The notes under the pieces: generated by a model
Told to the model about the DNA's origin: nothing
Databases searched by the model: none
Seen by the model: the letters and a program-made list of their open reading frames with translations, nothing else
In this document: one piece after another, positions 21,180 to 25,577 of the stretch
How positions within the stretch are numbered: position 1 is the first letter of the stretch
Layout: each line of letters opens with the position of its first letter
Translations under genes and position numbers: made by a program
Assembly: GCA_003989085.1 (NCBI GenBank)
Contig: RXIV01000003.1
Location: forward strand, 124,001-188,000
DNA length: 64,000 bases
From: Candidatus Competibacteraceae bacterium
GTDB taxonomy: Bacteria; Pseudomonadota; Gammaproteobacteria; Competibacterales; Competibacteraceae
Reading direction: 5' to 3'

Positions 21180-22445
21180 ATGAGTGCCTACTCAATCGAC
21201 ACTGCTGATGCTCCCATTTATTTGGGGCGGCAACCTATTCTGGATCGGGAACAGCGCATCGTGGCTTATGAGTTACTGTTCAGGTCTTCGCACGGTCATA
21301 ACGCCGCAGTCATCGTCGACGACTTTGCCGCCACTGCCCAAGTCGTCGTCCGGGCCTTTGCCGAATTCGGTTTAGCCAGTGTCCTCGGCGATTGTCTGGG
21401 CTATCTCAATGTAGACGAGCGATTCCTGTCCAGCGATCTAATCGAACTGCTGCCCCGCGACCGGGTGGTGCTGGAAGTGCTAGAAACCGTGGAGATGACG
21501 CCTGCTGTCCTGAGTCGGCTACGCGAACTCAAGACGATGGGGTTCCGGCTGGCGCTGGACGATTTCACCCACTTTTCGGATCAGTACATTCCAGCGCTGG
21601 CGCTGGTAGATATCGTCAAGCTGGATTTGCCGCTGTTCGCCGACGATGATCTGGCGGATATGGTCCAGCAATTGCGCCGCTGGCCGCTTCAACTGCTGGC
21701 TGAAAAGATTGACGACCGCGCCCAGTTTCAGAACTGCGCCCGGCTGGGGTTTGATCTATTCCAAGGCTATTTCTTCGCCAAACCAACTATCCTGAGCAGC
21801 CGCCGAGTGGACCCGACCCGCGCCGGAGTACTCCGACTGATGAATTTAGCATTGGGTGAGGTGGAAATCAGTACGCTGGAACAGGAATTCAAGCATTGCC
21901 CCAATCTGGCCTATAAACTGCTGCGGCTGGTTAATTCAGTGGGATTGGGTGTCTCAGCCAAAATCCATTCGCTGCGTCACGCACTAGTGGTGCTGGGTAA
22001 ACGGCAACTGCAACGCTGGCTGCAATTGTTATTATTCACTCAGGGCGCTGATGGCGTGGCCGGTCAGCCACTCCTGATTCTGGCGGCGATGCGTGGTAAA
22101 TTGATGGAATCGATGATGGAATGCATAGTCCCTTATGATCGGGAACAGGCCGATCATGCATTCATGGTTGGTGTATTATCGCTGCTGGACACCCTGTTCG
22201 GAACGCCATTGCCGGAATTGCTAGCTGAACTGAATCTGGCTGATCCAGTGCGATTAGCGCTACTGAACCATCAGGGAATGCTGGGCCGATTACTGAGTAT
22301 TATTCTCCGGTCTGAGCAGAACCAGTTGGTTGAACTGATCGCTGAGCTGACAGAATTGCAAGCATTGTCATTACTACAGTTCAATCAGGCGCAATTACAG
22401 GCTCTCGGTTGGGCTAATGAATTAGCTGTTTGCCATGGGAGGTGA
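21180..22445 (+). CDS. EAL-HDOD two-domain regulatory protein
   Basis: The 421-residue protein joins an EAL-like domain (about 12-210) to an HDOD domain (about 215-410). In the EAL part the signature is YELLFR. The later DDFTHF, VDIVKLD and EKIDD segments are recognisable, but several acidic metal ligands of active c-di-GMP phosphodiesterases seem missing, so it is probably catalytically inactive. The HDOD part (CPNLAYKLLRLVNSVGLG, then LRHALVVLGKRQLQRWL) resembles domains in signalling proteins such as YuxH and CdgJ. The downstream CheZ-like gene starts four bases after its stop, so the two are probably co-translated and may act in motility or surface signalling. Confidence 0.88.
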   Translation: MSAYSIDTADAPIYLGRQPILDREQRIVAYELLFRSSHGHNAAVIVDDFAATAQVVVRAFAEFGLASVLGDCLGYLNVDERFLSSDLIELLPRDRVVLEVLETVEMTPAVLSRLRELKTMGFRLALDDFTHFSDQYIPALALVDIVKLDLPLFADDDLADMVQQLRRWPLQLLAEKIDDRAQFQNCARLGFDLFQGYFFAKPTILSSRRVDPTRAGVLRLMNLALGEVEISTLEQEFKHCPNLAYKLLRLVNSVGLGVSAKIHSLRHALVVLGKRQLQRWLQLLLFTQGADGVAGQPLLILAAMRGKLMESMMECIVPYDREQADHAFMVGVLSLLDTLFGTPLPELLAELNLADPVRLALLNHQGMLGRLLSIILRSEQNQLVELIAELTELQALSLLQFNQAQLQALGWANELAVCHGR

Positions 22446-22449
22446 GGTT

Positions 22450-23040
22450 ATGGACTTACCCGGTTCAAGTGCTCGCAATCCCGATCTGGACTGGAGCCAG
22501 GTTCGGGAAACCATTCTGATGCTGGCTCTGGCCGTTGCTCAGATTGAAATGTCAATGCGTGAAAGTGATGGTTCGGTGGAAGTATTAAGCAACTCGTTCA
22601 CTTCAATGGTCGGCCAGGTCAAGATGATCGAAAGAACTGTTGCCGCATTGCCAGATAGCGTGGAAATGACTGACGCCAAGGTTGCGATCATTAGTAGTTG
22701 CGCCACGGTGAGTGAAATGATGCACTCCGCCATCATTGCCTTTCAGTTCTACGACAAGCTGACCCAGCGTCTGAACCACGTGACCGGCAGTCTGGGATCC
22801 CTCGCCGATCTAGTCAATGATCAGCGCCGCTTGTATAATCCTTATGAGTGGCTCGGGATGCAGGAGAAGATTAAATCCCGCTATACAATGGAAGAAGAAC
22901 GGCTGATGTTTGATGCTATCATGCAGGGTAAAACTGTTAAACAGGCGCTGGCGATTTATGTCCAGGCTATTGAAGATCGCAAGCAGAAAACTGCGGACAG
23001 CAGTAGCGGCGATGATGAAGACGATATTGAGCTGTTTTAA
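22450..23040 (+). CDS. Small helical protein with a CheZ-like DxxxQ motif
   Basis: The 196-residue product is almost entirely alpha-helical. The segment AFQFYDKLTQRLNHV (residues 97-111) places Asp102 and Gln106 in a DxxxQ arrangement. This is the arrangement of the catalytic Asp143/Gln147 helix of the CheY-P phosphatase CheZ. A flexible Ser/Asp-rich linker then leads to an acidic-hydrophobic C-terminus, DDEDDIELF, which resembles the CheY-binding tail of CheZ. The family link is inference from these features; overall similarity is not evident by eye. A strong GGAGGTGAGG site precedes the ATG at 22450. It could dephosphorylate a response regulator working with the EAL-HDOD partner; no CheY or receiver gene is in the window. 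Confidence 0.7.
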   Translation: MDLPGSSARNPDLDWSQVRETILMLALAVAQIEMSMRESDGSVEVLSNSFTSMVGQVKMIERTVAALPDSVEMTDAKVAIISSCATVSEMMHSAIIAFQFYDKLTQRLNHVTGSLGSLADLVNDQRRLYNPYEWLGMQEKIKSRYTMEEERLMFDAIMQGKTVKQALAIYVQAIEDRKQKTADSSSGDDEDDIELF

Positions 23041-23078: not shown

Positions 23079-25577
23079 ATGGAGTCTGTTGACGTCATTG
23101 TCCCGGTTTACCGGGGACTACTGGAAACCCGCCGCTGCCTGGAAAGCGTTCTCAGTCATCAACAACAATGCCCGTATGAACTGGTGGTCATTGATGACGC
23201 CAGCCCGGAACCGGAGTTGGCCGCTTGGCTGGACGAACTGGCCGCCAACCAACGCATCACCCTGTTGCGCCATACCGCCAACGTTGGCTTCGTGGCGACA
23301 GCCAACCACGGCTTGGCGCTGCACCCCGACCGGGATGTCGTGCTGCTCAACAGCGATACCGAAGTTAACGGCGACTGGCTGGATCGGTTGGTGCGTTGCG
23401 CCTACGCCGACGAACGGATCGGCACGGTCACGCCGTTTTCCAACAACGCCACTATTTGCAGTTACCCGCTCTTCTGCCAGGACAACCCCCTGCCGGACGG
23501 TCTGAGTCTGGCGGAACTGGATATGCTGTTCTGCCGCGCCAACCTGGGCCGTCGACTGGAAATTCCTACCGCAGTCGGATTCTGTATGTATATGCGCCGC
23601 GCTTGTCTGACGGCGGTCGGCGAACTGGACGAACGCCATTTCGGGCTGGGTTATGGCGAAGAAAACGATTTTTGCATGAGAGCCAGCAAGGCCGGGTGGC
23701 GGCATGTCCTGTGCGCCGACACCTTCGTTTACCATGTCGGCAACGTCAGTTTCAGCGATCGGGCGGCGCAATTACAGGCACAGGCGCAAACCACCCTGGC
23801 GACCTTGCACCCGGAATACCCGGTGCAAATCCAGGATTTTATCCGCCAGGATCCGGCGGGAGTATTGCGACTGGCGGTCAACCAGGAACGGGGCCGGTTC
23901 TCGCCCGAACAGGCTGCGCAAGTCATCCTGGAGCAGAATACCGCACTCTCCGATCTGTGGCGGCAGCGGCAAGAGTGCCTGTCAAACACCGCAGCGCTGG
24001 AACACGGGTTGCGCGAGGCCGAACGCCTGCTCAATCAGACCTGGTATGAGCTGCAAACCCGGGATCAGGCGCTCAGTGAAGCGCAACACTATGTCCGGCA
24101 ACGGGAAATCGATGTCGCCAGCCTACAGGAACAAAGCAGTGTCCTGCAGGACGAATTGCAGAGAGCCGGTCAGGCGCTGACTGCGGCTCAGCGGGAAGTA
24201 GCGGCTCTTCAGGAACAGGGCCGAATCATGCAAGCTGAACTATGCACACTCAGTCATGCATTGGCCGAAGTGCAACAGAATGTCCGGCAGCGGGAGATCG
24301 ATATTGCGATTCTTCATGAACAGCGTCGCATGATGCGGGAAGAATTGCGGCGAATTCATGCCGCCCAAAACCTGGCGCTACCCTCATTTTTACCTACGGC
24401 CATGACCAAAACCACTCATCTGTTCACCAGCATTACCGCCAATTATCTGCCCAAGGCCCGGGTGCTGGCGCATTCAGCCCGTCGGCAAGGTCTGGATATC
24501 CAGTTTCATGTGCTGTTGTGCGACGACTATCCCGCTGATGAAGAACGGAGCGCAGAACCCTTTGACTCCATCATTGATGTGCGGGATCTGCCGGTTCCCG
24601 GCTTGGAGTCCTGGTTGTTCGGGCATACGGTGGTGGAGATGTGCACTGCGGTCAAAGCGATGGGCTTTCTGGAAATCGCCCGCCGCTTCGCTGCCGACAA
24701 GATCTTCTACTTTGATCCCGACATCGTGATCCTGTCGGGACTGGACGGGCTGATCAAACGCCTGGACGAGCACAGTATCCTGCTGACTCCGCATCAGACC
24801 TTGCCCGAGCAGGCAATGGATGCGGTGATCGATAATGAGATCGGCAGCCTCAAGTATGGCGTGTTCAATCTCGGGTTTCTGGGCGTGCGCACCAGCGAGG
24901 AAGGCCTGCGGTTTTTGAACTGGTGGGCTGAGCGGTTGCGGCATTTTTGCCATGACGACATCGCCGGTGGGCTATTCACCGATCAGCGCTGGATCGATCT
25001 GGCCCCGGCCTTTTTCCCCGATATCGGCATCCTGCGTGAGCCAGTTTATAACGTCGCCACCTGGAATCTCACCCATCGCCGAGCCACTGGATCGATGGAA
25101 AGCGGTATTGCCATCAATGGTGAACCGCTGGCGTTTTATCACTTTTCCGGTTTTGACGGCGGCGCTCAGGAAGTGATGCTGAAGAAATATGCCGCGAAGG
25201 ATTCGGTGCTGTTCGACTTGCGCTACTGGTATATTGGAGAATGCCGGCGTATGGGTCAGGAGCGTTTGGGCCATCGTCCCAGCCGTTACCACCACTTCGA
25301 TAACGGCCAGCCCATCACCCGGTCACACCGGATTCTCTACCGTACTCGCCTGGATTTACAGCGCGCCTTTCCACAGCCGTTCCGAGCCACAGGGAAGTCT
25401 TATTACCGCTGGTATCAGCGGAATCAGAGCAGCGTCGATCTGGATGAAACAGCAGTTGATGACGCCTTGATCCGGGCCCGGCTGTCCGATGCGCGCCGTG
25501 AACTGGACTTGATCAAGCGCTCCAGGAGTTGGCGGCTGGCGCGAGCTATGGCGCGGGTGCTGAATGCCTTTCGCTGA
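23079..25577 (+). CDS. Bifunctional glycosyltransferase: GT2 domain, coiled coil, GT8-like domain
   Basis: The 832-residue protein has three parts. Residues 1-260 are a GT2 family domain: DVIVPVYRGLLETRRCLES, the NSDTEV metal-binding motif near 87, and GYGEENDFCMRA near 190. Residues about 285-430 form a coiled coil with a repeated unit (VRQREIDVASLQEQ and VRQREIDIAILHEQ). Residues about 440-720 are a second nucleotide-sugar transferase-like domain with a DxD (YFDPDIVIL). It ends with a short basic tail (SRSWRLARAM) seen in other coiled-coil glycosyltransferases. It probably builds surface polysaccharide or glycosylates a surface protein; acceptor unknown. It overlaps the next glycosyltransferase gene by 14 bases. 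Confidence 0.85.
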   Translation: MESVDVIVPVYRGLLETRRCLESVLSHQQQCPYELVVIDDASPEPELAAWLDELAANQRITLLRHTANVGFVATANHGLALHPDRDVVLLNSDTEVNGDWLDRLVRCAYADERIGTVTPFSNNATICSYPLFCQDNPLPDGLSLAELDMLFCRANLGRRLEIPTAVGFCMYMRRACLTAVGELDERHFGLGYGEENDFCMRASKAGWRHVLCADTFVYHVGNVSFSDRAAQLQAQAQTTLATLHPEYPVQIQDFIRQDPAGVLRLAVNQERGRFSPEQAAQVILEQNTALSDLWRQRQECLSNTAALEHGLREAERLLNQTWYELQTRDQALSEAQHYVRQREIDVASLQEQSSVLQDELQRAGQALTAAQREVAALQEQGRIMQAELCTLSHALAEVQQNVRQREIDIAILHEQRRMMREELRRIHAAQNLALPSFLPTAMTKTTHLFTSITANYLPKARVLAHSARRQGLDIQFHVLLCDDYPADEERSAEPFDSIIDVRDLPVPGLESWLFGHTVVEMCTAVKAMGFLEIARRFAADKIFYFDPDIVILSGLDGLIKRLDEHSILLTPHQTLPEQAMDAVIDNEIGSLKYGVFNLGFLGVRTSEEGLRFLNWWAERLRHFCHDDIAGGLFTDQRWIDLAPAFFPDIGILREPVYNVATWNLTHRRATGSMESGIAINGEPLAFYHFSGFDGGAQEVMLKKYAAKDSVLFDLRYWYIGECRRMGQERLGHRPSRYHHFDNGQPITRSHRILYRTRLDLQRAFPQPFRATGKSYYRWYQRNQSSVDLDETAVDDALIRARLSDARRELDLIKRSRSWRLARAMARVLNAFR

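Follow-up and report, generated by a model that had tools for sequence, protein, structure and literature searches.

A conserved family of small CheZ-like proteins as candidate receiver phosphatases of flagellar chemotaxis in Pseudomonadota

Introduction

Does the short open reading frame at 22450..23040 (+) of the window, by which we mean the entire 64,000-nucleotide stretch of Competibacteraceae DNA analysed here, encode a phosphatase of chemotaxis signaling, and what are its real partners? Its 196-residue product, P0001, had been proposed from sequence to be a divergent CheZ-type phosphatase coupled to a neighboring EAL-HDOD protein, with a link to surface glycans. In CheZ a glutamine enters the active site of the receiver and an aspartate supports that glutamine, and the protein folds as a long helical hairpin that dimerises into a four-helix bundle; the CheX, CheC and FliY phosphatases use an ExxN motif. 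Searches of the open-access PMC literature listed no account of the P0001 proteins, nor of any chemoreceptor that ends in a CheZ-type segment. Here we combine family-wide conservation, profile comparison and the distribution of the gene across genomes to ask what P0001 most plausibly does.

Results

The P0001 reading frame matched 0 families in Pfam, returned only a chance-level match in NCBIfam (E 0.076) and gave no match in a sequence search of the PDB. A scan of genome contigs found that 337 of 353 candidate stretches encode relatives, hosted by Competibacteraceae-type genomes and by many Rhodocyclales and Nitrosomonadales; the best 80 of these 337 were kept and, together with P0001, make up the 81 aligned sequences discussed below. 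A C-terminal [DE][IV]E[LF]F-stop pattern, searched as DNA in seven genomes, gave 16 matches versus 3 for the reversed pattern. These two results argue that neither the reading frame nor its sequence marks arose by chance, and P0001 is a member of a conserved, so far uncatalogued protein family. One relative, 78% identical to P0001, lies in a record titled Synechococcaceae cyanobacterium (L014) next to a glutamate-synthase-like neighbor as in Competibacteraceae, and this contig is probably mis-binned. Genes neighboring the relatives were called by GC3, and the neighbor counts given below are approximate, the family gene itself not having been picked in 6 of the 80 loci.

The sequence features that first drew attention to this protein are real and lie under strong constraint. 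The putative catalytic DxxxQ helix, A97-F-Q-F-Y-D102-K-L-T-Q106 (22738..22767, +), contains Asp102 (codon 22753-22755) and Gln106 (codon 22765-22767), both within AFQFYDKLTQRLNHV, and conservation of this pair, chosen beforehand as a check on the prediction, was found in 81/81 sequences (P0001 and the best 80 of 337 relatives). A97 to L104, Q106 to L108 and H110 are equally invariant across the same 81 sequences, including the tyrosine at D-1 (Tyr101, 81/81), and the longest unbroken stretch of invariant residues in P0001 either includes D102 and Q106 or directly adjoins them. The predicted acidic tail is borne out in the same way: the peptide D192-I-E-L-F196 (23023..23037, +) closes a DDIELF sequence in which Phe196 is kept in 81/81, Glu194 in 78/81 and Leu195 in 76/81 sequences, behind a linker that varies in both length and sequence. 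Being invariant or nearly so across the 81 sequences, the DxxxQ helix and the tail rank with the most constrained segments of P0001. A second conserved motif, Y145-T-M-E-E-E-R151 (22882..22902, +), is common to many chemoreceptor-borne relatives and missing in others.

The tail recurs on other proteins. Two of the 16 pattern matches end in TGG and hence lack a stop, and the 14 real open reading frames divide into 5 members of the P0001 family, 7 chemoreceptor-like DxxxQ proteins and 2 GGDEF proteins; the window genome has just two copies of the pattern, one closing P0001 and the other closing a chemoreceptor-like protein of contig C13. The two GGDEF proteins (L165 and L166, read as GAF-GGDEF) end in EVELF or DIELF, with no DxxxQ helix seen. 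Such sharing speaks for a putative docking peptide with one common partner. CheD (assigned by reading) in the che operons of L112 and L121 carries GDVELF or GEVELF at or near its C-terminus. The tail also resembles the chemoreceptor pentapeptide xWxxF. Sliding-clamp-binding motifs contain a glutamine, and a clamp-binding function was rejected since the tail lacks this residue.

A profile of 46 family members, searched against 398 Pseudomonadota genomes, matched 22 genomes at E <= 0.001. Weaker matches were mostly to chemoreceptor-like proteins of ~400 residues with C-termini of the form LQFQDRVSQ...YTMxE...DITFF or EVELF, the remainder being small free-standing proteins and larger proteins. 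The homology to this module spans the C-terminal two thirds of P0001. A module-only profile containing no family members scored 100 against the P0001 family, with controls of 8.0-12.7 in 8 column shuffles and 13.3 for the reversed profile; a comparison of alignments A1 and A2 was discounted because A2 contains P0001 family members. Judged by these profile scores, the C-terminal part of P0001 is clearly homologous to the chemoreceptor-borne module. The window genome itself encodes such a carrier on contig C13 (L112:6605-7675), a 356-aa chemoreceptor-like protein (MCPsignal, E 3e-21) with an LQFEDIVGQ helix and the tail GDVELF, as the last gene of a che operon. This protein and the soluble chemoreceptor-like proteins at L088-L096 share with P0001 the homologous module, its D and Q, and a DIELF/DVELF/DITFF tail, but they bear the module fused behind an MCPsignal domain, whereas P0001 is free-standing with N-terminal helices of its own. 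Proteins of ~1200 residues from one family of small genomes (L098-L100), with a QNIDRVSQRL helix and YVMEEER, are a third type of carrier.

Across the phylum sample the module was matched in 157/398 genomes at E <= 0.001, of which the weak ones (E above about 1e-5) could be fortuitous hits to helical proteins, and 30 fetched loci were inspected. D and Q are kept in all 30, and in 24/24 of those outside the P0001 family, and all 30 end in Phe; the DIELF of P0001 is a tail of the [DE][IV]xxF type. The flanking positions are freer, with Q, E, Y or G at D-1 (Q in 15/30) and A, S, E, Q, D, N or G at D-5; F at D-2 is as constant as D and Q.

P0001 had been described as otherwise not obviously CheZ, and profile searches agree. 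PF04344 (CheZ) gave no match for P0001, was absent from the list of 25 families that a scan of 46 members produced, and matched 0/7 members scanned singly; because this profile test failed, P0001 is not counted here as a CheZ. The family profile scored 15.3 against a CheZ profile, within the shuffle range of 10.0-18.6, and P0001 as a direct CheZ homologue was rejected on this ground. The module profile scored 30.3 against a profile of 25 CheZ sequences (E 0.001), and this alignment sets D on D and Q on Q; none of 30 shuffles exceeded 16.4, the reversed profile gave 17.0, and a smaller module set scored 26.1 vs at most 14.1 in 8 shuffles. Since the direct family score lies within its shuffles, kinship between P0001 and CheZ runs solely through this module bridge, which weakly suggests it. 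In PMC7750401 the CheZ motif is given as AxxFQ directly before DxxxQ; set against that motif, A97 (D-5) and F100 (D-2) of P0001 fit in register and the glutamine is replaced by Tyr101.

Further likenesses lie in general design, P0001 being, as CheZ is, a small soluble helical protein that has its DxxxQ on a helix, ends in an acidic, Phe-terminated peptide behind a linker, and occurs with flagella. The differences are equally definite: the tails of the CheZ sequences compared are of the VDDLLxSLGF type rather than DIELF, and P0001 has an extra Y-T-M-x-x-E-R segment and Tyr, not Gln, at D-1. Monomer models of P0001 were all helical, with pLDDT 64 (46 rows) and 71 (58 rows). Nothing reached E <= 0.001 when these models of modest confidence were compared with Foldseek, and the best VIA score was a Z of 7.4 to unrelated helical proteins; CheZ was not listed, an absence that carries little weight with such monomer models. 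PDB sequence searches with alignments A3 and A2 yielded nothing meaningful, the A2 matches being short repeats.

Two sets of CheZ matches concern other proteins. The sole PF04344 match in the window genome (14.6 bits) is, by reading, a response-regulator/histidine-kinase protein. In five outside genomes that carry P0001 homologues (L128-L132), a canonical CheZ is accompanied by another CheZ-like protein, which has an N-terminus rich in Lys, Ala and Pro, an AQEFQDLAGQ helix and a FliM-N-like tail of the LSQAEIDGLLKDLMP type. Taking these second, weak CheZ matches as P0001 homologues proved wrong: they have a CheZ-type helix as P0001 does, but lie above the CheZ cut-off and have LSQAEIDGLLKDLMP-type ends.

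These conservation patterns bear on a rather unlikely reading in which P0001 is a chemotaxis scaffold or adaptor and no enzyme, its QFYDxxxQ helix serving to pack or dimerise and its tail tethering it, or a chemoreceptor-like carrier, to a shared polar or array partner. The presence of the tail on chemoreceptor-like proteins and on two GAF-GGDEF proteins in which no such helix was seen would fit a common partner rather than catalysis, and F98, F100, R107, L108 and H110 are as invariant in the family as D and Q. Against it, D and Q persist throughout the inspected module loci while D-1 and D-5 vary, as expected of a catalytic pair, although the phenylalanine at D-2 is equally constant, and the weak in-register match of the module to CheZ also tells against a purely structural helix.

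The distribution of the gene points to flagellar chemotaxis. P0001, CheW, FliM and CheZ were searched in the same 59 relatives, of which the window's taxonomic family comprises 37 genomes. The P0001 gene is present in 15/37, and FliM was found in 13/15 carriers vs 6/22 non-carriers (Fisher p 0.0006, a value inflated by relatedness); the two carriers without a FliM match are genomes 82% and 58% complete. In the subset of 25 genomes with a completeness of 90% or more, FliM is in 10/10 carriers vs 4/15 non-carriers (Fisher p 0.0005, likewise inflated by relatedness), and the 11 near-complete FliM-less genomes include 0 carriers. Shuffling carriers only within genera gave p 0.017 (37 genomes) and 0.013 (25 near-complete). 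In genera g220 and g223 the P0001 gene and FliM are both present or both absent, except in G433 (58% complete). G432 was scored without the gene and FliM; its EAL-HDOD orthologue hits the contig end where P0001 would follow, and this may be a false absence of the P0001 gene. Four near-complete, flagellated genomes (G401, G403, G406, G413) are without full-length P0001, two of them with weak module matches (G403 and G413, E about 4e-6 and 5e-6). Because ten genomes lacking both FliM and the P0001 gene keep 6 to 12 CheW matches, P0001 tracks flagella and not chemosensory arrays generally.

The relation to CheZ itself differs between lineages. None of the 15 P0001 carriers in the window's taxonomic family has CheZ, which was found in 1/37 genomes there (G416, with FliM present and P0001 absent). 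Outside it, CheZ lies above cut-off in 25/25 carriers picked from the 66 loci L016-L081 and in 5/5 other genomes with full-length matches in the phylum sample, vs a background of 147/398 phylum genomes. The contrast between 25/25 and this background argues that the P0001 family occurs with flagellar chemotaxis in those lineages too, and retention of CheZ in all 25 sampled outside carriers led us to reject P0001 as a mere CheZ replacement. In the window genome the P0001 gene lies outside any che operon. A 137-aa relative in G442 (L121; E 1.1e-11), with FQFYDRLTQQLDHV and the tail VVELF, occupies position X of a cheY-cheA-cheW-STAS-X-cheR-cheD-cheB operon (labels by reading, STAS by Pfam), and at L040 a CheZ gene (Pfam, 128 bits) ends 77 bases before the P0001 homologue.

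The original prediction of a CheZ-type phosphatase thus holds in part: a CheZ-like role is favored by the retained D and Q, the chemotaxis loci and the tracking of flagella, while membership in CheZ is not supported, PF04344 being unmatched. Improbable, by comparison, is a phosphatase acting on some receiver other than flagellar CheY, be it that of a second chemosensory system or of a phosphorelay built from a hybrid kinase and Hpt. In 10/80 loci (best 80 of 337 relatives) the next downstream gene encodes Hpt, either as a protein of its own or as the terminal H-box of a hybrid kinase. CheZ presumably already serves flagellar CheY in the 25 sampled outside carriers, and within the window's taxonomic family CheW matches are more numerous in carriers (median 13 vs 6.5). 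The Hpt neighbor is, however, limited to one branch, of Azonexus/Dechloromonas/Propionivibrio type (Pfam Hpt 43.8 bits for one), and the P0001 gene is missing from the non-flagellated genomes that keep CheW.

The window genome also holds another candidate for the task proposed for P0001. Its flagellar che cluster (L113) encodes FliM, FliL, a 161-aa protein, CheY, CheR, CheB, MCP, CheW and CheA, where FliM and CheW were labeled by search and the others by reading. The 161-aa protein (L113:1657-2142, -; contig C1) contains YEVMN, an ExxN pattern as in CheX/CheC, and has a counterpart at L121:1470-2021 (-), the size being conserved at 161-183 aa. Pfam gave it no CheX/CheC assignment, and it is possibly a CheX/CheC-like phosphatase that Pfam missed. 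It is present in 13/14 FliM genomes and 0/11 FliM-less ones among the near-complete genomes, and it tracks FliM at least as well as P0001 does. The YEVMN protein may be the main CheY phosphatase in the window genome with P0001 as an auxiliary, or neither may fill that role. P0001 itself matches none of the CheX/CheC/FliY Pfam families, though the proposed task is the same.

The coupling to the EAL-HDOD protein that had been proposed for P0001 describes the window well and the family poorly. The upstream frame (21180..22445, +) stops at 22445 and P0001 begins with an ATG at 22450, and this 4-base gap, together with a Shine-Dalgarno-like GGAGGTGAGG (22438..22447, +, by sequence reading) overlapping the upstream stop codon, marks a close linkage of the two genes in the window genome. 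Its description as degenerate was overstated, as the EAL domain scores 70.5 bits in Pfam (cut-off 31.3), alongside HDOD at 33.2 bits over 54/196 profile positions. The catalytic and metal-binding EAL residues (the E of YELLFR, N, E, DD, K, the E of AEK and the Q of FQGY) are identical in 7/7 aligned orthologues, and the loop after DDF diverges. An EAL-HDOD orthologue or remnant lies upstream in 8/80 loci and is missing in 72/80 (best 80 of 337 relatives), a count limited by upstream DNA of <=1300 bases in 4/80 loci; a ninth upstream match, L051, has weak EAL similarity only. In several relatives the gene looks to be decaying: G420 and G431 have it in fragments, L013 has it split between two frames, and L008 retains a fused remnant, all with P0001 intact, although assembly errors are possible. 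The EAL-HDOD linkage is a local, lineage-specific arrangement.

That P0001 is an EAL-HDOD partner in the control of c-di-GMP and surface glycans is consequently very improbable: the 4-base gap, orthologues upstream in L016, L018 and L020 outside the window's taxonomic family, GGDEF/EAL genes (by reading) upstream in L019 and L051, and the effects of HDOD proteins on swimming in Pseudomonas (PMC11004494, PMC11813219) are outweighed by the 72/80 loci without the orthologue, by its breakage beside intact P0001, by G398 of the same genus, which has the P0001 gene and a best EAL-HDOD match not above 32% identity, and by the glycosyltransferase-like frame downstream (23079..25577, +; label by sequence reading), whose counterpart neighbors P0001 in L002 only (1/80 of the best 80 of 337 relatives), which leaves the suggested glycan link unsupported.

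Discussion

The reading we favor, with somewhat better than even confidence, is that P0001 acts on a CheY-type receiver of flagellar chemotaxis, as a phosphatase working in the manner of CheZ. P0001 would remove the phosphate from this receiver within the flagellar chemotaxis pathway, with Asp102 and Gln106 presented on one helix of a putative, possibly dimeric bundle. Gln106 would enter the receiver active site and position the attacking water, Asp102 would contact the receiver, and the D-I-E-L-F peptide on its flexible linker would dock P0001 onto its receiver or onto a common partner in chemotaxis. Directly observed are the conservation of Asp102, Gln106 and the tail, the homology to the chemoreceptor-borne module, the relative in a che operon and the co-occurrence with flagella; we infer that P0001 acts as a phosphatase, which receiver it serves, that it forms a dimeric bundle and what its tail binds.

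The recurrence of the module invites a broader and more tentative proposal, to which we give distinctly less credence: P0001 and its relatives might form, in Pseudomonadota, a second class of receiver phosphatases of the CheZ type that is still without a name, defined by a DxxxQ module with a [DE][IV]xxF docking peptide and occurring either free-standing or fused to the ends of soluble chemoreceptor-like proteins. The tail, present on two GGDEF proteins as well, would then draw phosphatase activity and c-di-GMP synthesis together at a shared hub. If this were true, a receptor-like protein would carry its own off-switch.

How CheY-P is switched off in flagellated bacteria without CheZ is a standing question, and the P0001 family offers a concrete candidate for a lineage nearly devoid of CheZ. 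The family likewise provides a testable reason for the retention of several CheZ-like proteins by other bacteria. With the module matched in 157 of 398 genomes, the function of a single member, if established, would annotate many chemoreceptor-like C-termini that are now blank.
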